Below, one piece after another: positions 4,451 to 62,016 of a DNA stretch of 64,000 nucleotides (its first letter is position 1; each line of letters begins with the position of its first letter). The notes under the pieces were generated by a model that searched no databases, had not been told where the DNA came from, and saw only the letters and a list, made by a program, of their open reading frames with translations. This stretch comes from an uncultured Pelagibacteraceae bacterium (GTDB lineage: Bacteria > Pseudomonadota > Alphaproteobacteria > Pelagibacterales > Pelagibacteraceae). A program made the translations under genes and the position numbers. The stretch spans positions 1 through 64,000 of the forward strand of contig CACJEG010000002.1 of assembly GCA_902592375.1 (NCBI GenBank). Direction: 5' to 3'.

Positions 4451-4720
4451 CTAAATATCAACTTTTTCGGATCTCAATAAACGCAGTTTTGTCTTAATTC
4501 CACCTCTCCCTGAGTATCCACCAAGGCCTCCATCGGACCGAATTACTCTATGACAGGGTATTTTGGGGGCATAAGGGTTTTTTCCACATGCATTAGCTAC
4601 AGCACGCGCTGATTTAGGGCTTTTTATAGCTATTGCTACCTGTTTATAGGTTTTAACAGTGCCTTTAGGTATAGTTTTAAGGTAATTCCAGACTTTTAAT
4701 TGAAATTTAGTACCTTTCAT
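4451..4720 (-). CDS. ogt: Single-domain 6-O-alkylguanine-DNA methyltransferase
   Basis: Suicide repair of O6-alkylguanine in DNA by transfer of the alkyl group to a cysteine. I take the ATG at 4720, giving 89 residues; a TTG 27 nt upstream is unnecessary. Seen: the active-site motif IPCHRV with Cys56, the helix-turn-helix segment with SARAVANACGKNP (Arg39 as the base-flipping arginine) and the C-terminal GGYSGRGGIKTK. The usual N-terminal RNase-H-like domain of Ogt/Ada-C (about 70 residues) is absent, so this is the minimal catalytic domain. The active Cys is present, so it is not an alkyltransferase-like (ATL) protein that has lost it. The start overlaps the stop of a small membrane gene (TGATG). 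Confidence 0.9.
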   Translation of the reverse strand: MKGTKFQLKVWNYLKTIPKGTVKTYKQVAIAIKSPKSARAVANACGKNPYAPKIPCHRVIRSDGGLGGYSGRGGIKTKLRLLRSEKVDI

Positions 4721-4890
4721 CAATAAAAATTTAAAATAAGGAAGCAAACTATAAAGAAAACAGTTAAAATTGAAAGATAAATAGTTTCAAGAGTTTTTCC
4801 AGATTTTCTATAATTAATAAAGCTTAATATTGCAAAACCAAAAGATGTTATTAAGAAATATATCGGTTCAATTACTCCATCTAAGCCCAT
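4720..4890 (-). CDS. Small predicted membrane protein, 56 aa, coupled to the methyltransferase gene
   Basis: A short minus-strand frame reading MGLDGVIEPIYF at its N-terminus and ending CFLILNFY. It has two hydrophobic segments (about residues 9-26 and 38-55) separated by a basic, polar turn (NYRKSGKTLET), as expected of a helical hairpin in the inner membrane with a cytoplasmic loop. It starts with ATG at 4888-4890, and its TGA stop shares one base with the ATG of the methyltransferase gene, a typical translational-coupling junction. That junction and the membrane-like composition are the reasons for believing it. I do not recognise the family. No Shine-Dalgarno is obvious, which is common in this genome. 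Confidence 0.6.
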   Translation of the reverse strand: MGLDGVIEPIYFLITSFGFAILSFINYRKSGKTLETIYLSILTVFFIVCFLILNFY

Positions 4891-5026: not shown

Positions 5027-5980
5027 ATGAATGAACTGACAACAGACCTAAAATCACTTCATGAGGCAACTTTAAATAACCTTAAAAGCTCTAAAGCAAA
5101 TAACACTTTAAGAGCATATAAATCAGACTTTAAAGACTTTGGAGCTTTTTGTGCTAAGCATGGTTTAAATTCTTTACCATCTGAACCTAAAATCGTTTCT
5201 TTATACCTTACCCACCTTTCTAAAAATTCAAAAATCAGCACTTTAAGAAGAAGATTAGTTTCAATTAGCATGTTTCATAAACTAAAAGGGCATTATTTAG
5301 ATACAAAACATCCAATCATTGTTGAAAACTTAATGGGAATAAGAAGGGTAAAAGGAAGTATTCAGAAAGGTAAAAAACCTATATTAATCAATCATTTAAA
5401 ATCAATAATTGATGTAATAAATCATCAAAAAATTGAGGAAATTAAGAAGTCAAGAGATAAGACAATCATCCTAGTAGGCTTTGGAGGTGGTTTTAGACGA
5501 ACTGAACTTATTTCAATTAACCATGAGGACTTGGAGTTTGTAAATGAGGGTCTCAAAATCTCCATCAGAAGATCAAAAACTGATCAATTCGGTGAAGGAA
5601 TGATGAAAGGTCTACCCTACTTCACTAATGAAAATTATTGTCCAGTGGCTAATCTTAAAAATTGGTTACAAATTTCTAAAATAAAATCTGGGCCAATTTT
5701 TAGAAGATTTTCTAAAGGATCAACTTTAACTGAAAATAGATTAACAGATCAATCTGTAGTTCTGTTAATAAAAGAATACTTAAAACTAGCAGGTATTGAA
5801 AATAAAAATTTTGCAGGTCATAGTTTAAGATCAGGTTTTGCAACCGTCGCTGCAGAATCTGGTGCTGATGAACGTAGCATTATGGCAATGACTGGTCACA
5901 AAACAACGCAAATGGTTAGAAGGTATATAAGAGAGGCCAATATATTTAAAAATAATGCTTTAAACAAAATTAAAATATAA
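5027..5980 (+). CDS. Orphan tyrosine recombinase / integrase
   Basis: A 317-residue site-specific recombinase. The N-terminal SAM-like core-binding domain spans about residues 10-95 and the catalytic domain about 115-310. The catalytic set is complete: Arg157 (GFRRTEL), the beta-hairpin Lys184 (RRSKTDQ), His265 and Arg268 (HSLRSG), His291 (GHKTT) and the nucleophile Tyr300 (MVRRYIREA). It should therefore be active. No tRNA, excisionase or other phage gene touches it and I see no duplicated attachment site beside it, so it looks like the remainder of, or a single-gene, integrated element. A dyad repeat covers its promoter. It is not XerC/XerD-like in its immediate neighbourhood, although that family cannot be excluded by eye. 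Confidence 0.9.
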   Translation: MNELTTDLKSLHEATLNNLKSSKANNTLRAYKSDFKDFGAFCAKHGLNSLPSEPKIVSLYLTHLSKNSKISTLRRRLVSISMFHKLKGHYLDTKHPIIVENLMGIRRVKGSIQKGKKPILINHLKSIIDVINHQKIEEIKKSRDKTIILVGFGGGFRRTELISINHEDLEFVNEGLKISIRRSKTDQFGEGMMKGLPYFTNENYCPVANLKNWLQISKIKSGPIFRRFSKGSTLTENRLTDQSVVLLIKEYLKLAGIENKNFAGHSLRSGFATVAAESGADERSIMAMTGHKTTQMVRRYIREANIFKNNALNKIKI

Positions 5981-21480: not shown

Positions 21481-22345
21481 GCAAATCCTTCAAATATATA
21501 ATTACAGCAATCCAAATAAAAATAAAACTAACTAATTTTGTTATTGAAAAAGGCTCGTTGTAATAAAAATAACCCAATAAAAACTGAAAAGTTGGAGTTA
21601 TATAAAATATCATGCCTGTCGGTCCTAAACCACAGAGTTCAACTCCCCTAACATATAAAAATAAAGGTATAACGGTCATAGGTCCAGCAAGATAAATAAA
21701 TAGCATCATTGAAGGATCAGATAATTGAAAATCATTATAACCTTTGCTTGTTATTAGATAAAAAGCCAATAGTGCAAATGGTAATATAAATAAACTCTCT
21801 ATAAGAAGGCCTACATCAGTATCAACATTAATTTTTTTTCTAACTAAATTGTAAAACCCCCAACTTAAAGCAACAATTAAACCAACCCAAGGCAATGATT
21901 TAATACTCACAATTATTAAAAAAAGAATAGATAGAATAACCAACAAGATTGAAAAGACTCTTTTTTTATTTAGTTTCTCTTTAAAAAAAAGATAACCAAG
22001 CATTACGCTTAAAATGGGCATTATAAAATACCCAAAACTTGCATCTATAATTCTATTTGTTGCTATAGCATATATCCATACACCCCAATTTATAAAAATT
22101 AAAAATCCTGAGATAAATAAATAAAATAAATTTGATTTATTTTTTACGATTTTAAAAAAAACATTCCATTTAGAGAAAAAAAAAGTGGTCAGAATTAAAG
22201 TAAACGCTGTCCACAAACATCTATGAACTACTAATTCAATATGCCCAATATAAGCGATATATTTAAAATAAATTACACCAAAAAATCCCCACCAAAAAGA
22301 TCCAAACCCAGCAAGTAATAAGCCTTTATTAAATTCTTTATTCAT
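21467..22345 (-). CDS. rarD: RarD-type DMT-superfamily transporter
   Basis: A 292-residue membrane protein with about ten helices in two EamA repeats. The N-terminal stretch KGLLLAGFGSFWWGFFGVIYFK and the HIELVVHRCLWTA box, with WVYAIATNRI-like GVWIYAIATNRIIDASFGYF, are characteristic of the RarD/YojE group rather than generic EamA proteins. The substrate is unknown; the rarD name refers to family likeness and not to chloramphenicol resistance. It is the first gene of the long minus-strand run. Its start lies about 70 bp from the tRNA-Ser half-copy, so it marks the left flank of the tRNA-Ser insertion. Confidence 0.85.
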   Translation of the reverse strand: MNKEFNKGLLLAGFGSFWWGFFGVIYFKYIAYIGHIELVVHRCLWTAFTLILTTFFFSKWNVFFKIVKNKSNLFYLFISGFLIFINWGVWIYAIATNRIIDASFGYFIMPILSVMLGYLFFKEKLNKKRVFSILLVILSILFLIIVSIKSLPWVGLIVALSWGFYNLVRKKINVDTDVGLLIESLFILPFALLAFYLITSKGYNDFQLSDPSMMLFIYLAGPMTVIPLFLYVRGVELCGLGPTGMIFYITPTFQFLLGYFYYNEPFSITKLVSFIFIWIAVIIYLKDLHETN

Positions 22346-22413
22346 AGGAAAGCATGATGCTTGTAATTAATAAGTTTATTAGACTATTTTATGGTTGAAT
22401 TAAATAATTATAA

Positions 22414-22470
22414 TTATAAAACCTTGCTCACGGAGAGATGGCTGAGTGGTTGAAAGCACCGGTCTTGAAA
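22414..22470 (+). repeat. 57-bp direct repeat, left copy (att-like core)
   Basis: Identical to 25624-25680. It contains TATAAA (22415-22420), the leader and the 5' half of tRNA-Ser. Identity stops exactly after the anticodon loop; the following bases (TTCCAAG) do not match the tRNA. Confidence 0.9.
22432..22470 (+). pseudogene. 5' half of tRNA-Ser(TGA), truncated copy
   Basis: Thirty-nine nucleotides identical to the start of the intact tRNA-Ser at 25642: acceptor 5' strand, D-arm, anticodon stem 5' strand and loop. The 3' half is missing, so no tRNA can be made. A promoter-like -10 is retained, so a short truncated transcript is conceivable. It is best read as the tRNA 5' portion displaced by integration of the 3.2-kb segment. 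Confidence 0.88.
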
Positions 22471-22653
22471 TTCCAAGTAACCCCTACTCCCATTAAGACG
22501 ATTCACATACTTATCAAGTCATTGCTTACTTATTTAATTTCACCTTTTACGAAAAAAGCATCATTCTTGGCTCGCTTAAGCTACAAAACTAGAGACAAAC
22601 TAGAGACAAATATTATTTATTAATTTTTTAAAATAGATTTTGCTCTTAAATAA
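22471..22653. other. Non-coding left end of the tRNA-Ser segment
   Basis: There is no credible gene. After the tRNA half comes about 116 bp of unrecognised sequence, then the tandem CTAGAGACAAA arm repeat, then a short AT-rich stretch up to the 3' end of the glycosyltransferase gene. A plus-strand frame from 22438 to 22623 begins inside the tRNA half and is not considered real. Confidence 0.6.
22587..22611 (+). repeat. 25-bp arm-like direct repeat, left copy
   Basis: It consists of two tandem CTAGAGACAAA units plus flanking bases and is a perfect match to 25546-25570. Tandem 11-bp units beside an att core resemble integrase arm-type binding sites. Confidence 0.85.
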
Positions 22654-23661
22654 TCAATTGTTTGGATTAAGATTTTCTAGGAAGATTTTTGCAGCTTTTT
22701 CCCAAGAGAAATTTTTTGCAAATTCAAGACAATCTTGACGATTTATTTTTAATGCTTTCATCGCAGATTTTCTCAAATCGTGATCTAGAGTATCAATATT
22801 AGTTCCTCCTAATATATCTTTAGGTCCAGGTACAGGATAAGCAGCAACAGGTGTTCCGCAATTTAAAGACTCCAAAATAACTATACCAAAAGTGTCAGTT
22901 TTACTTGGAAATACAAAAACATCTGATGATGCAAAATGTGAAGCTAATTCTCCATTAGTTCTTTCACCTAAAAAAATATCTTTTGGAAACTTTTTTTTTA
23001 AATTTTTTAAATCAGGTCCTTTTCCAATAATAACTTTAGTACCTTCGAGATCCAAATCTAAAAAGGCTTTAATATTTTTTTCAACTGCAATCCTACCAAC
23101 ATATATCCATATAGGTCTTTTATAAGGTAAATTTTGTTTAACAGGATTTTTAAATGCGCCATGATTGCCTCCCCTAGTCCATGTTACCATTTTATTATTA
23201 TCTATACCTAATGCTATTAGTTCCTCACGCATAGACTCTGTTGTAATTAAAATTTTTTCAGCTTTATTATGAAAATTACATAAAAATTTTTCTGACCACT
23301 TAGCTGGAATTATGGGCATATATAGTTTCATATATTTATCAAACCTGGTGTGAAAACTTGTGGTAAATTTCAGATCTTTTTTAATACAATGTCTTCTTGC
23401 CATGAAGCCAATGGGTCCTTCTGTTGCAATATGTATAGCATCAGGATTGATGGAATTAATCAAATTACTTACACGTGGCCACACATTTATAGACAATCTT
23501 ATTTCGTTATATTTTGGCATTGGTACTGTAAAAAATTGTTGTGGAGTAAGATATTCAATAATGTGACCTTGTGATTTAAGTATCTCACCAGTTTGATGAA
23601 GTGTTCTTACAACACCGTTAACTTGAGGGTAATATGCGTCAGTTACTATTAAAATTTTCAT
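22654..23661 (-). CDS. agt: Family 4 glycosyltransferase, probable diacylglycerol glycosyltransferase (Agt-like)
   Basis: A 335-residue GT-B glycosyltransferase. The N-terminal half starts MKILIVTDAYYPQVNGVVRTL (residues 1-20 region) with TEGPIGFMARRHC and FTTSFHTRFDKYM. The C-terminal half has IWIYVGRIAVEKN and the EX7E motif in KTDTFGIVILESLNCGTPV. This is the type found with SqdX and with the Agt enzymes that glycosylate diacylglycerol. It lies 3 nt downstream of the PlcP gene on the same strand, the pairing known for phosphate-stress lipid remodelling in marine alphaproteobacteria (PlcP makes diacylglycerol, Agt makes glycolipid). The acceptor is inferred from this pairing. A role in another glycan is possible but less likely. 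Confidence 0.82.
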   Translation of the reverse strand: MKILIVTDAYYPQVNGVVRTLHQTGEILKSQGHIIEYLTPQQFFTVPMPKYNEIRLSINVWPRVSNLINSINPDAIHIATEGPIGFMARRHCIKKDLKFTTSFHTRFDKYMKLYMPIIPAKWSEKFLCNFHNKAEKILITTESMREELIALGIDNNKMVTWTRGGNHGAFKNPVKQNLPYKRPIWIYVGRIAVEKNIKAFLDLDLEGTKVIIGKGPDLKNLKKKFPKDIFLGERTNGELASHFASSDVFVFPSKTDTFGIVILESLNCGTPVAAYPVPGPKDILGGTNIDTLDHDLRKSAMKALKINRQDCLEFAKNFSWEKAAKIFLENLNPNN

Positions 23662-23664
23662 TCT

Positions 23665-24471
23665 TTAAGATGCTTCTTTTATGTAAGTAAACTTATCCTT
23701 GTCTTTATCTTCTGAGATATATTCTTTTCTTTTTGTGTCCCAATAAATAATTTCAAAAGTTCCGTCATATTTTTCAGCCAAGGCTGTGCATGACTCTACC
23801 CAATCACCACAATTTAAATAATTTACTCCATTAAAATCTCTATCTTCAGCATGGTGTATGTGACCACAAATAATTCCATCAAATTTTTTTTTTTTCGCAT
23901 AATTTGAAACCGTCTTTTCATATTCACCAATATATTTAACTGCATTTTTGACTTTATATTTTAAAAATTTTGCAAGTGACCAATATTCTTTACCTCTTAA
24001 CTTCCTAAAAAAATTAATTATTACGTTTAGTTTTAACAATAAATTGTAGGCTATTGATCCAAGTTTAGATAACCATTTTGCATGTTTCATAACACCATCC
24101 CAAGCATCGCCATGAACTACAACATATTTTTTTCCTGAATTTGTTTTGTGAATAACTCTATTAACAAAATGGATATCTCCAAAATTCATTGGGATAAATT
24201 TTCTAAGTAATTCGTCATGATTTCCAATAATGTAAAATACTTTTGTACCATGTCTCGATTTTCTCAATATTTTTTGAATGACATCATTGTGCGATTGTGG
24301 CCAATGAAAACTTTTTTGCATAGCCCAAATGTCGATGATATCACCAACCAAATAAAGATTTTCAGATCTTGTATATTTAAAAAACTCAAGAAGTTTATTA
24401 GCCTGACAACCTTTTGTCCCCAAATGCACGTCAGAAACAAATATACTTTTATATTTTAAAAGATTTAGCAT
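23665..24471 (-). CDS. plcP: PlcP-type metallophosphoesterase (phospholipase C)
   Basis: Hydrolyses phospholipid head groups to diacylglycerol under phosphate limitation. Calcineurin-like motifs are complete: SDVHLGTKG, GDIID, GNHDELL, VVHGDAWDG and CGHIHHAED. The following NCGDWVESCTAL distinguishes the PlcP group from LpxH, the usual database mis-annotation. I choose ATG 24471 (MLNLLKYKSIFVSDV, 268 residues) because family members begin shortly before the first motif. An upstream in-frame ATG at 24528 would add 19 poorly conserved residues and would put the Pho-like box inside the gene. No membrane segment is evident. It is followed after 3 nt by the glycosyltransferase gene and is divergent from the lipid-kinase gene. 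Confidence 0.85.
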   Translation of the reverse strand: MLNLLKYKSIFVSDVHLGTKGCQANKLLEFFKYTRSENLYLVGDIIDIWAMQKSFHWPQSHNDVIQKILRKSRHGTKVFYIIGNHDELLRKFIPMNFGDIHFVNRVIHKTNSGKKYVVVHGDAWDGVMKHAKWLSKLGSIAYNLLLKLNVIINFFRKLRGKEYWSLAKFLKYKVKNAVKYIGEYEKTVSNYAKKKKFDGIICGHIHHAEDRDFNGVNYLNCGDWVESCTALAEKYDGTFEIIYWDTKRKEYISEDKDKDKFTYIKEAS

Positions 24472-24485
24472 TAACAAATCTATTT

Positions 24486-24503
24486 TTGTAACAATATTGT
24501 AAC
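24486..24503 (+). promoter_or_regulatory. Candidate PhoB box between plcP and the lipid-kinase gene
   Basis: TTGTAACAATATTGTAAC is a direct repeat of TTGTAAC with 11-bp period. It differs from the box before pstC (61999-62016) at one position. It is followed after exactly 10 bp by TATGTT (24514-24519) as a -10 on the plus strand, which would drive the kinase gene from about 24526. A much weaker opposite-strand match (24535-24552) is the only candidate for plcP-agt. Confidence 0.65.
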
Positions 24504-24567
24504 GTGAATCATTTATGTTTTCTGACATTCAATTATTAAGAATTTGTTAAAATTTTTTTAAAGAATT

Positions 24568-25452
24568 ATGTATTTTTGTTTAATCTATAATCTCAATTCT
24601 TCTTCAGGAAGAAAATCAAAGTTCATAAATAAAATATTATCAAAATTAAAGGAAAGTAATTCAGTGGACTACTTCGAGACTAAAACAGTAGATCAAGCCA
24701 AAAAAATTTTAGAGAATTTTAGTCAAAAAAATTATGATCGACTAATAATAGCTGGTGGTGATGGATCTGTTTCTTTTGCAATTAATGAACTAATTAAAAA
24801 TGATTTTAAATTTAAAGAAGATTTTGCAGTAGGTTATATTCCTGCTGGTACTGCTAATTTACTTCAGGCTGAATTATCAATGAATAAGAAGGTTGATGAC
24901 ATAGTAAATGTATTAATTTCAAATAATTATAAGCCTTCAAGCCTTGTAAAAATTAATGAAAATTACTTCCTTTTAATGGCAGGTATAGGATGGGATGCAA
25001 AAATTGTTCATTCAATTAATTCAAAAATAAAAAAGATTCTTGGTAAAATTATTTTTGGAATTAAAGGTTTTCAATATTTTATATTAATGAATAATAAAAA
25101 ATTGAACGTCACCTTTGATGGAAAATTTTATCAAGCAGACTGGATTTTATCCTCAAACACTAAATATTATGCTGGACATCATATAATCAACAATACAAAT
25201 ATTTTTGAAAATGAATTGGTAACCTATATATTCAAAGATCTAACAAGATTAGGTTTGTTATATTCTATTTTTTTAATAATTATTAATGGCGACTTAAGTA
25301 AAAATAAGAATGTGATAACAACTTATTCTAAAAATATCACTATAAAAGGAAATGATTTAGTTCCGGTACAAATTGATGGAGATAATTTTGGTTTGCATAA
25401 AAGAATTCATTTAAATCTCTCAAATAAAAAAGTTAATTTTCTTATTCAATGA
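24568..25452 (+). CDS. Diacylglycerol kinase-family lipid kinase
   Basis: A 294-residue member of the DAG/sphingosine kinase catalytic family (DagK/YegS/BmrU-like). Seen: MYFCLIYNLNSSSGR (family N-P-xSG position), LIIAGGDGSVSFAINEL with the nucleotide-binding GGDGS (about 71-75), GYIPAGTANLLQAEL (family GTxNdfA) and a C-terminal QIDGDNFG. The expected reaction is ATP-dependent phosphorylation of diacylglycerol to phosphatidic acid. Placed divergently from plcP-agt behind a Pho-like box, it would return PlcP-made diacylglycerol to phospholipid synthesis or balance the pool. The acceptor lipid is inferred. It is probably cytoplasmic or peripheral on the inner membrane. Confidence 0.85.
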   Translation: MYFCLIYNLNSSSGRKSKFINKILSKLKESNSVDYFETKTVDQAKKILENFSQKNYDRLIIAGGDGSVSFAINELIKNDFKFKEDFAVGYIPAGTANLLQAELSMNKKVDDIVNVLISNNYKPSSLVKINENYFLLMAGIGWDAKIVHSINSKIKKILGKIIFGIKGFQYFILMNNKKLNVTFDGKFYQADWILSSNTKYYAGHHIINNTNIFENELVTYIFKDLTRLGLLYSIFLIIINGDLSKNKNVITTYSKNITIKGNDLVPVQIDGDNFGLHKRIHLNLSNKKVNFLIQ

Positions 25453-25545
25453 ATATAATCTTTATAATTTTAATTAATACATTGTAAAAATCGTCAGATC
25501 CAGAAACTTGATTCAATGTAGCTAAGTAATAGGATTTTGTAGGAT

Positions 25546-25570
25546 AACTAGAGACAAACTAGAGACAAAT
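25546..25570 (+). repeat. 25-bp arm-like direct repeat, right copy
   Basis: A perfect copy of 22587-22611, with two CTAGAGACAAA units. It lies 53 bp before the right 57-bp core repeat. Confidence 0.85.
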
Positions 25571-25601
25571 TAAACTTTTCAAAAAAAAATATCCTGTTTT
25601 T

Positions 25602-25630
25602 TTGTTGAATTTTAATATTTTACTTATAAA
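25602..25630 (+). promoter_or_regulatory. Promoter of tRNA-Ser
   Basis: TTGTTG (25602-25607) and TATAAA (25625-25630) with a 17-bp spacer precede the tRNA by 11 bp. The -10 is part of the duplicated 57-bp core, so the cassette brought its own -10, while the -35 lies in cassette DNA. Confidence 0.55.
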
Positions 25631-25680
25631 ACCTTGCTCACGGAGAGATGGCTGAGTGGTTGAAAGCACCGGTCTTGAAA
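25624..25680 (+). repeat. 57-bp direct repeat, right copy (att-like core)
   Basis: Identical to 22414-22470. It ends at the last base of the anticodon loop of the intact tRNA-Ser. Confidence 0.9.
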
Positions 25681-25731
25681 ACCGGCAAAGGGGCAACTCT
25701 TTCCTGGGTTCGAATCCCAGTCTCTCCGCCA
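25642..25731 (+). tRNA. tRNA-Ser (anticodon TGA), intact
   Basis: A complete class II tRNA. The acceptor arms GGAGAGA/TCTCTCC pair, the anticodon stem CCGGT/ACCGG holds the loop CTTGAAA with TGA (25676-25678), a long variable arm follows, then GGTTCGAATCC in the T-arm and encoded CCA (25729-25731). Its 5' half is duplicated at 22432. The stop codon of sdhE begins on the next base. Confidence 0.97.
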
Positions 25732-25995
25732 CTATTTTTCAACATAATCAAAATTTTTAAATAAATCAGTTACATTATTTTTTTCAAAAATAAAATCGGT
25801 CTCTAAACCATTTAAAAAATTGTATAAATTTGAATCATCAATATCCAATAATTTTTCTAATTTCACTAAATCATCATCACTTAAGTCATTAATATATTTT
25901 TTAACAAAAGCTCCTAAAAGTTTATCCATTTCTTTGGTGCCCCTATAATTTGATCGATAAATAATTTTTTTTTTTAATTCGTCTATATTGATCAT
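25732..25995 (-). CDS. sdhE: Succinate dehydrogenase assembly factor SdhE
   Basis: Small cytoplasmic protein that promotes covalent FAD attachment to SdhA. The 87 residues contain KIIYRSNYRGTKEMDKLLGAF, where RGTKEMD corresponds to the essential RGxxE motif of SdhE/YgfY/Sdh5, and DLVKLEKLLDIDDSNLYNFL, the family helix. Length and layout fit. It is divergent from recG (25 bp apart), an arrangement common in alphaproteobacteria. Its stop codon abuts the 3' end of tRNA-Ser, so it marks the right flank of the tRNA-Ser insertion. Confidence 0.92.
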   Translation of the reverse strand: MINIDELKKKIIYRSNYRGTKEMDKLLGAFVKKYINDLSDDDLVKLEKLLDIDDSNLYNFLNGLETDFIFEKNNVTDLFKNFDYVEK

Positions 25996-26020
25996 AAATA
26001 TTAGAATATATTAGTTGTTA

Positions 26021-53649: not shown

Positions 53650-54816
53650 ATGAAAAATATTAAAAAAATACCACTTATATTCTCAATATTATCAATTCTA
53701 ACATTCTTTACACCAGCAAATGCTGAAATAAAAGTAGTTGCTTCTATTAAACCAATTCATTCATTAGCTAGTTACTTAATGGATGGTATTGCTAAACCTG
53801 ATTTAATAGTTGATGGATATGCTTCTCCACATGGATTTGCAATGAAACCTTCGCACGCAAAAATGCTTCAAAATGCAGATCTAATATTCTGGGTTGGTGA
53901 AGATTTAGAGAGTTTTTTAGAAAAACCATTGAGTTCAATTGCTAAGAAAGCAGAAAAAATTGAATTAATGGAAACTAAAGGATTACAGGTATTAAAATTT
54001 AGAGAGAGAAATATTTTTGACGAACATGATCATGATGATCACGGACATGACGACCATGGTAAGAAAGAAGATGATCACGACGATCATGGACATGATGACC
54101 ACGGTAAAAAAGAAGATGACCATGACCATGATGACCACGGTAAAAAAGAAGATGACCATGACCATGATGACCACGGTAAAAAAGAAGATGACCATGACCA
54201 TGATGACCACGGTAAAAAGGAAGATGATCACGACCACGATCATGACGATCATGGTAAAAAAGAGGATGATCATGACGACCACGGACATGACGATCATGAT
54301 GGACATGCGCATGGTGAATTTGATCCACACATTTGGTTGGACCCAATTAATGCAAAAGCTATGTTAAATGAAATGGCAGAACATTTAATTGAAAATGATC
54401 CTAAAAATGAAGCTAAATATAAAAGTAATTTAGCAAAAGCTTTACAAGAAATAGATAAACTTACAATTGATGTAATGACAGATTTAAGCAACAGTGTTTC
54501 TTCAATTGTATTCCATGACGCTTATCAATATTTTGAAGAAAGATTTAATGTTAAAGTGTTAGGTGCATTTACTGTTAATACAGATGTTATGCCTGGAGCT
54601 GAACAACTTGCTGAAATTAGAGAAATTATCGAGCATGATAAAGTAGCTTGTGTATTCTCAGAGCCTCAGTTTAATCCTGATATTATCAATGCAGTTGCAA
54701 AAGATATGAAGATTAAAACTGGTGTTCTAGATCCTCTTGGTGCAACATTAGATCCAGGAAAAGACTTATATTTCAATTTAATTAGAAATATGTCTGCATC
54801 CTTCAAAGGTTGTTAA
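53650..54816 (+). CDS. znuA: Zinc ABC transporter substrate-binding protein with expanded His/Asp loop
   Basis: Periplasmic zinc-binding protein of ZnuABC. The 388 residues start with a signal peptide (about 1-25, PANA). Zinc ligands are recognisable: IKPIHSLASYL, then DPHIWLDPINAKAM after the loop, VFHDAYQYFEERF, and the C-terminal DPLGATLDPG. Between about residues 124 and 222 lies an extremely His/Asp/Lys-rich loop made of repeats such as DDHDHDDHGKKE. Such loops are normal in ZnuA (zinc scavenging or chaperoning) but usually about 20-40 residues long; this one is roughly 100. The protein is correspondingly longer than the usual 300-330 residues. It is divergent from znuC under two Zur-like sites and followed by a strong hairpin. 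Confidence 0.95.
   Translation: MKNIKKIPLIFSILSILTFFTPANAEIKVVASIKPIHSLASYLMDGIAKPDLIVDGYASPHGFAMKPSHAKMLQNADLIFWVGEDLESFLEKPLSSIAKKAEKIELMETKGLQVLKFRERNIFDEHDHDDHGHDDHGKKEDDHDDHGHDDHGKKEDDHDHDDHGKKEDDHDHDDHGKKEDDHDHDDHGKKEDDHDHDHDDHGKKEDDHDDHGHDDHDGHAHGEFDPHIWLDPINAKAMLNEMAEHLIENDPKNEAKYKSNLAKALQEIDKLTIDVMTDLSNSVSSIVFHDAYQYFEERFNVKVLGAFTVNTDVMPGAEQLAEIREIIEHDKVACVFSEPQFNPDIINAVAKDMKIKTGVLDPLGATLDPGKDLYFNLIRNMSASFKGC
54025..54315 (+). repeat. In-frame tandem repeats in znuA
   Basis: Coding units of 45, 45, 36, 36, 36 and 42 bp, followed by a worn remainder, each encode a variant of D-D-H-(G/D)-H-D-D-H-G-K-K-E. The three central 36-bp units (54115-54150, 54151-54186, 54187-54222) are almost identical at the DNA level, which points to recent slippage or unequal exchange. 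All unit lengths are multiples of three. Confidence 0.9.
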
Positions 54817-61998: not shown

Positions 61999-62016
61999 GT
62001 TACAATTTTGTTACAA
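61999..62016 (-). promoter_or_regulatory. PhoB box upstream of pstC
   Basis: On the minus strand it reads TTGTAACAAAATTGTAAC, a perfect direct repeat of TTGTAAC with 11-bp period. The candidate -10 TATCAA (61988-61983) is 10 bp further on. The short distance to the ATG at 61973 implies a nearly leaderless transcript. Confidence 0.72.

Follow-up and report, generated by a model that had tools for sequence, protein, structure and literature searches.

Streamlined SAR11 genomes hold few recognised mobile elements, and the route by which they gain niche genes is an open question. A three-gene locus seated in tRNA-Ser(TGA), between rarD and sdhE, of an uncultured Pelagibacteraceae genome (1.25 Mb, 23 contigs) raises this question in a sharp form: how does a set of genes move between cells when no integrase gene lies among them? 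Its relatives place the genome in SAR11. The window analysed here covers 64 kb from the start of contig C2 (CACJEG010000002.1) of this genome, and all coordinates are window positions unless another sequence is named. The initial annotation described the locus as a tRNA-borne cassette carrying a phosphate-sparing lipid module, namely PlcP, an Agt-like glycosyltransferase and a divergently transcribed kinase of the diacylglycerol kinase family. The three open reading frames (ORFs) and the tRNA linkage were confirmed, and the locus was determined to be an integrase-less mobile cassette.

The mobility of the cassette, which spans 22414-25731 (3.2 kb), was evident from the comparison with relatives. 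In the close relative G022 (98.6% and 96.6% protein identity in RarD and RecG, respectively), the site was empty: the DNA was 98.8% identical to the window over 22300-22470 and then ran straight into the intact tRNA. In the SAR11 cell AG-422-C13, the cassette was found again at this tRNA; the alignment over 22432-25731 was ungapped and contained 20 mismatches. Since the cassettes share 99.4% of their DNA whereas the sequences on either side are 71-81% identical, the cassette has been transferred horizontally and recently, and its ends lie at the tRNA. With AG-390-A23, the identities were 98-100% in the cassette, 92-98% in the left flank and 82-97% in the right flank. The three tRNA cassettes grouped as a single clade in both the PlcP tree (100/99) and the kinase tree (100/100), the latter built under a simpler model; in the Agt tree, the copy of G018 from a phoR locus was sister to the three (100/100). 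The proposal that the module is mobile cargo was thereby borne out, and the genes do not simply follow the core phylogeny without gain or loss. The coordinates alone would also allow lineage-specific core genes that merely lie beside a tRNA, with the tRNA fragment being accidental. This was rejected because of the empty sites in relatives; it is also contradicted by the 99.4% identity between cells with divergent flanks and by the occurrence of the module at another common address near phoR, and it is practically untenable. On the right side of the cassette (25681-26000), the SdhE of the window and of G022 (L075) shared 75% of their residues, far below RarD and RecG, which resembles a tract exchange.

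The cassette ends are organised as a lambda-like attachment site (Table 1): they comprise the 5' half of tRNA-Ser as far as the anticodon loop, a P' stretch and, on either side, two 11-bp iterons at fixed distances. The 57-bp copies at 22414-22470 and 25624-25680 were identical and spaced by 3210 bp. The left copy stops at the 7-nt anticodon loop, CTTGAAA, around which the tRNA stem was read from the sequence as CCGGT/ACCGG; an anticodon loop flanked by its stem is a usual core for a tyrosine integrase. Inside both ends, at 22587-22611 and 25546-25570, lies a 25-bp repeat of two direct 11-bp iterons, and its two copies were 100% identical. The element is bounded by an intact tRNA and a displaced fragment of the same tRNA, as a tRNA island is. 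No integrase gene was found between the ends in the ORF list or with Pfam, the three cargo ORFs all belonging to other families, and the only PF00589 match in the genome was located at 5396-5935.

Similar ends were found elsewhere in SAR11. The tRNA-Ser half occurred at least once in 135 of the 397 family genomes and was duplicated in five, all of which held inserts of 1.1-3.2 kb with alignable ends and differing cargo. The right-arm signature gave 78 hits, spread over 63 of the 399 genomes of the genus, compared with one hit in each of two genomes for the reversed-pattern control. Thirty signature loci were classified: ten lay 110-112 bp before tRNA-Ser(TGA), seven 118 bp before tRNA-Leu(TAA) and one further off from tRNA-Leu, and the remaining 12 had no tRNA nearby (seven of these were seated at the 5' end of the same small protein gene and one at a copy of this end; the other four lay elsewhere or were cut). 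Among the 53 ORFs of 24 elements, no recombinase was noticed by ORF reading, with family searches run on a few of them. The elements keep their recombination sites and lack the enzyme gene (the cargo of the siblings was judged by ORF reading), and in several genomes they are stacked in arrays. SAR11 therefore holds a family of integrase-less cassettes with unrelated cargo, lambda-like ends and paired 11-bp iterons, seated at tRNA-Ser, tRNA-Leu or a small gene; no earlier report of such SAR11 cassettes was found within the openly licensed literature. A resolvase was rejected as the mobiliser: PF00239 was absent from all 13 genomes searched, each of which has either the signature or a second copy of the tRNA half, and was detected in 10 of 14 control genomes. 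Of the sibling cargoes, the tRNA-Ser cassette of G358 (L112) encodes a type IIG restriction-methyltransferase (1061 bits, PADLOC), that of G543 (L270) an N6_N4_Mtase and ResIII pair (Pfam), and the small-gene-site cassette of G702 (L316) three genes which, by sequence reading only, resemble type I restriction-modification.

Within an element, the left and right iterons vary together. The left arm of the tRNA-Ser elements starts about 118 bp past the core. When it was defined by this position in 13 elements, 49 mismatches to the own right arm were counted, compared with a shuffled mean of 107.9, and none of 100000 shuffles was as low; the own right arm was the closest one in 10 of the 13. This test omits G731 and AG-422-C13 (the window's cassette) as well as the element opening the G558 array, whose left end was unidentified, and the arms of G521 and G736 were shifted by one or two bases, which added mismatches. 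With the tRNA-Leu pairs, as low a total was reached by 195 of 100000 shuffles, the own arm being best in three of nine, but that comparison is circular because the left arms were preselected by their likeness to the right arm. In the arrays of G558 and G719, each element holds its own matching iteron pair. The iteron may serve as an address by which a cassette is matched to an integrase variant.

These data bear on whether the cassette is a relic of an integrase-bearing island, now spread by homologous recombination between the conserved tRNA flanks. The exact 57-bp left repeat and the conserved right tRNA do offer homology, and the SdhE of the window, which differs from that of G022 more than RarD and RecG do, looks like the product of a recombination tract. 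However, the divergence of AG-422-C13 begins right at the tRNA ends, and its sequence differs from the window 5' of the left half whereas it is the same 5' of the right copy, as site-specific integration predicts. The co-variation of the iterons, the separate matching pairs of the array elements, and the same ends around different cargoes are likewise at odds with such a relic, which is regarded as rather unlikely.

The best explanation, given a probability of roughly 65%, is that the cassettes borrow the integrases of satellite-like elements. The enzyme would be supplied in trans by elements seated at the same tRNA and having similar attachment sites, and the helper would encode an integrase-like protein of 530-580 aa together with an AEP/DUF5906 primase. 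Autonomous-looking elements with similar attachment sites occupy the cassette targets. At tRNA-Ser of G686, a cassette right end, a tRNA-Ser half, a helper-like element and the intact tRNA-Ser follow each other in tandem (the left end of this cassette lay outside the stretch analysed). The G686 element encodes an AEP/DUF5906 primase and a 558-aa protein 40% identical to the integrase of L313, which has 551 aa and a PF00589 score of 40.5 bits. In its P' stretch, 48 of the first 50 bases agreed with the G358 cassette, whereas nine other cassettes agreed at 27-34 (a further one was not located). The distance from arm to tRNA is 96 bp in this element and 95-96 bp in two cassettes, and the iteron of the element was the same as that of the G699 cassette.

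At tRNA-Leu, the corresponding candidates were recognised by a triplet, AGTCTC-N4-AGTCTC-N4-AGTCTC, located 23 bases past the core and matched at 13-17 of 18 positions in the 12 cassette left ends examined, from nine genomes. At the same offset, the viral contigs L327, L342 and L348 scored 18 and L346 scored 13, the other 19 viral contigs at most 10; G302 and L313 reached 17 and 13, respectively, while 20000 random strings did not exceed 14. L327 is a 7.8-kb contig with repeating ends, a primase and a 545-aa integrase-like ORF (PF00589 23.6 bits, cut-off 27.1), to which the proteins of L348, L342, L346 and L313 were 94%, 90%, 70% and 54% identical, respectively. The G302 element encodes a PF00589 integrase (40.4 bits) and a primase, and its right arm, ACTAGAAACAAACTAGAAACTA, lies 104 bp from the tRNA compared with 103 bp in a cassette. 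In G240, a tRNA-Leu cassette is followed by a tRNA-Leu half and then by an element whose 531-aa protein is 36% identical to the L313 integrase. Upstream of the G240 half, at 419-4075 of L362, a run of pilin-like genes with the common N-terminal stretch FTLIELLVVVAIIGILAAVGVVAYNGYT was observed. For the third, small-gene site, a complete attP was found in L351, its two sides both bearing ACTCGA iterons, next to a 581-aa integrase-like ORF (26.1 bits) and a primase; the P' iterons (5724-5820) overlap the first codons of the integrase-like ORF itself. No ACT-type tandem iterons were found at seven further integrase loci (L307-L313) from genomes positive for the arm signature, yet one of the seven, L313, is a candidate helper at tRNA-Leu.

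Several observations weigh against the borrowing of integrases. No helper carrying the window's own iteron was found, and of the 399 genomes of the genus just six, the window's not among them, encode a relative of the L313 integrase, the copy in one of the six being broken. The 16-18-bp cassette signature, GGATTTTATAGGAT, is missing from the ends of G686, G302 and L351, where 7-8 of 16 bases agree with it. In the G240 element, the inner arms differ and the AGTCTC triplet is absent. At E 0.01, Pfam recognised neither the G686 nor the G240 protein, and the L327 and L351 proteins remained under the PF00589 cut-off, so that the integrase role of these four is argued from their similarity to L313 and G302, which pass it. 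The left arm was nearer to another element's right arm in three of the 13 tRNA-Ser elements. Finally, the iterons vary at few positions, and therefore the single exact match between a cassette and a helper iteron is weak when taken alone.

A further possibility is that the cassettes are moved by the host's own tyrosine recombinase, presumably Xer. The protein at 5396-5935 is the sole PF00589 match in the window's genome, and a sole match was also found in the one-contig, signature-bearing genome G095. This support is limited, as PF00589 is insensitive to some larger integrase-like proteins and the absence of others is thereby unproven. Moreover, element-specific iterons suit dedicated integrases better than one host enzyme, and the cassette targets also harbour integrase-bearing elements whose attachment sites are similar, which makes a role of the host enzyme very improbable.

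Other carriers of tRNA halves were compared with the cassettes. The tRNA-Ser half was found in L125, L136 and L142, and in L125 an integrase-like ORF lies beside it (PF00589 26.6 bits, just below the cut-off); L125 was rejected as kin of the cassettes because its flanking sequence is unlike theirs. The tRNA-Ser half had no match in the phage collection, and neither the arm signature nor portions of the tRNA-Ser left end turned up when the viral contigs were scanned for exact matches. Kinship of the cassette ends with named phages was rejected as well: the Pelagibacter phage HTVC105P has a tRNA-Leu half by its integrase but other inner arms. In this phage (L350), the 5' half of the SAR11 tRNA-Leu(TAA) occupies 4684-4723, right after the annotated integrase gene. 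Phage, satellite-like elements and cassettes therefore share one target.

Table 1. Features of the tRNA-Ser(TGA) cassette and of a related repeat elsewhere in the window.
Feature	Position	Strand	Remark
attL: displaced 5' half of tRNA-Ser(TGA) and upstream sequence	22414..22470	+	exact copy of 25624-25680; site empty in G022
Element-side P' stretch	22471..22586	+	alignable with four other tRNA-Ser cassettes of unrelated cargo
Left arm, tandem 11-bp iteron ACTAGAGACAA x2	22587..22611	+	
Agt-like GT4 glycosyltransferase	22654..23661	-	Pfam; putative conversion of diacylglycerol to glycolipid
PlcP-like metallophosphoesterase	23665..24528	-	Pfam; putative conversion of phospholipid to diacylglycerol
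Predicted Pho-box-like repeat TTGTAAC-N4-TTGTAAC, facing dagK	24486..24503	+	
Diacylglycerol-kinase-family protein	24568..25452	+	DAGK_cat; GGDGS motif read from sequence
Right-arm signature GGATTTTGTAGGATAACT and the same two iterons as in the left arm	25532..25568	+	
attR: element-borne upstream region and 5' half rebuilding the tRNA gene	25594..25680	+	
Intact tRNA-Ser(TGA)	25642..25731	+	
Second perfect Pho-box-like repeat, outside the cassette, 26 bp 5' of the pstC-like ORF	61999..62016	-	

The names of neighbouring genes (valS, ilvD, rlpA etc.) were read from the sequence, Pfam having been run on the homologues of rarD, sdhE, recG, manC, phoR, phoB, pstS and pstC only. Elsewhere in the window (53650-54816), an ORF reading like ZnuA contains a long tandem His/Asp-rich repeat (DHDDHGKKED).

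The cargo proteins were assigned with Pfam, the glycosyltransferase to Glyco_transf_4 (67.2 bits) and Glycos_transf_1 (64.5 bits), the second ORF to the metallophosphoesterases (46.8 bits) and the third to DAGK_cat (78.8 bits). None of the three reached an NCBIfam cut-off; the kinase scored 102.1 bits with TIGR00147, the cut-off of this curated subfamily being 118.65. Its DAGK_cat domain and GGDG motif (GGDGS) are those of the DgkB/YegS type, and the best match among solved structures was DgkB 2qv7 (E 5.7e-20). The metallophosphoesterase and GT4 genes adjoin and are co-directional, as in PlcP-Agt modules, and homologues suggest that plcP may start at an internal Met near 24471. The names PlcP, Agt and diacylglycerol kinase, as well as the putative lipid function, were derived from family, synteny and literature. 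In the SAR11 strain HTCC7211, plcP is described to complement a mutant and the glycosyltransferase to make glycolipids from diacylglycerol (PMC4796936, PMC8231724). With these three genes, cells can probably replace phosphorus lipids by sugar lipids.

The distribution of the module was determined in the window's genome and 60 relatives (37 genomes of the genus, 24 of the order). The plcP gene was present in 8 of the 37 and in 13 of the 24 genomes, respectively. The same eight genus genomes, including the window's, carried dagK, as contig-end fragments in three (G018, G032, G036), and one weak dagK match was obtained in G010 (E 6.5e-4); among the 13 same-order genomes with plcP, none had a dagK match. 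A scan of named genomes gave 177 relatives of the kinase, of which 80 loci were kept, and agt and plcP stood beside dagK in all 80. The grouping of the three genes into a coherent set, and the co-occurrence of the kinase with plcP-agt, were hence upheld. Within the genus, the kinase is a fixed partner of plcP-agt; it is not a universal partner of plcP, as the same-order genomes show.

Apart from one locus cut too short and two tRNA-Ser cassettes, the 80 loci (77) had phoR and/or manC. Among the 78 non-cassette loci, 71 had phoR no more than 300 bp from agt and 62 had manC within the same distance of dagK, with 57 showing both; in 13, manC was 0.3-6.4 kb away from dagK. In L192, L193, L213, L217, L219 and L228, the gap between dagK and manC was about 4.7-6.4 kb, most loci having the two adjacent. 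G000 and G022 hold manC and phoR together without the module. The module thus has two addresses, the phoR address being the commoner. The initial annotation had linked the patchy distribution of the module to the tRNA cassette; the cassette is a real mobile one, but with 77 of 80 loci at phoR and/or manC it accounts for only a minority of the patchiness. Mosaic copies were observed in two genomes (L070/L072): the plcP of G016 was 81% and its dagK 58% identical to the window, and in G018 the values were 89% for agt, 80% for plcP and 74% for dagK.

Of the two perfect copies of TTGTAAC-N4-TTGTAAC in the window, one faces dagK and the other precedes the pstC-like ORF (Pfam DUF3708 and BPD_transp_1); a copy with two mismatches was located 5' of a pstS-like ORF. 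Allowing up to two mismatches, the window contained 5 matches compared with a mean of 1.01 over 100 shuffles, two of which reached 5. These Pho-box-like repeats are read as predicted PhoB sites. When the 130 bp preceding dagK were scored, the best dagK-facing match reached at least 11/14 in 79 of the 80 kinase loci and the plcP-facing score was 13 in 71, the scores not being independent because many of these loci are near-copies; of 3000 random stretches, 48 scored at least 11/14. The cassette of the window has a perfect copy toward dagK but only 10/14 toward plcP. As a perfect repeat faces dagK and its like sits 5' of pstC, dagK is probably induced under phosphate starvation.

Under such starvation, PlcP would convert phospholipid to diacylglycerol and Agt diacylglycerol to glycolipid, while a co-regulated kinase would return part of the diacylglycerol to phosphatidate. 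This flux could keep some phospholipid synthesis going and prevent the build-up of diacylglycerol. The earlier suggestion that the kinase permits reversal of the remodelling has become doubtful. A kinase of this family is expected to convert diacylglycerol to phosphatidate, which would permit a mainly reversing role once phosphate returns, and the divergent transcription of dagK allows separate control. Such a role, which concerns the regulation only, is unlikely with a perfect repeat toward dagK that is found again 5' of pstC, and with the high dagK-facing scores of nearly all loci, many of them near-copies, compared with random stretches. Induction of the kinase during starvation fits a sharing of the diacylglycerol flux better than simple reversal.

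The adjacent, co-directional metallophosphoesterase and GT4 genes are the same as those described for the PlcP-Agt remodelling of marine bacteria (PMC4796936, PMC8231724), to which the window's module adds a constant divergent partner of the diacylglycerol kinase family and its seat in a tRNA cassette. As in the islands described with Islander (PMC4383910), a tRNA gene and its displaced fragment surround the element and the crossover lies in the anticodon loop. In contrast to those islands, the SAR11 cassettes lack an integrase, several siblings are shorter than 2 kb, and the fragment is the 5' one, a type given by PMC4383910 for 159 of 3919 islands. Since the filters described there include an integrase and a 2-kb minimum, a finder of that type would discard such cassettes.

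Hitchers such as cis-mobilizable elements (CIMEs) keep their recombination sites and depend on the enzyme of another element. The same is described for miniature inverted-repeat transposable elements (MITEs) and clusters of attC sites lacking an integrase (CALINs) (PMC11389934). Unlike all of these, the cassettes have a lambda-like site, element-specific paired iterons and one to few cargo genes, they sit at the 5' ends of tRNAs or a gene, and their helper appears satellite-like. VEIMEs and tycheposons are marine phage satellites (PMC11389934; tycheposons also PMC10872708). The putative helpers L327, L351, G686 and G302 likewise pair an integrase-like protein with an AEP/DUF5906 primase at such sites, whereas the window's cassette has neither an integrase nor a primase gene of its own.

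With the ends and the target of a cassette family defined and candidate helper integrases at hand, the question of how SAR11 gains genes becomes testable, and the end signature provides a simple search key for cassettes. A phosphate-saving lipid module becomes tied to a gene traffic that may follow phage satellites. It is conceivable, although the odds are somewhat against it, that SAR11 practises an integron-like gene exchange without a resident integrase, in which iteron-addressed cassettes stacked at tRNA-Ser, tRNA-Leu and the small gene are moved by phage-satellite integrases, perhaps in phage particles. If so, a three-tier nest of phage, satellite and cassette would deliver phosphate-saving and defence genes to abundant ocean bacteria.

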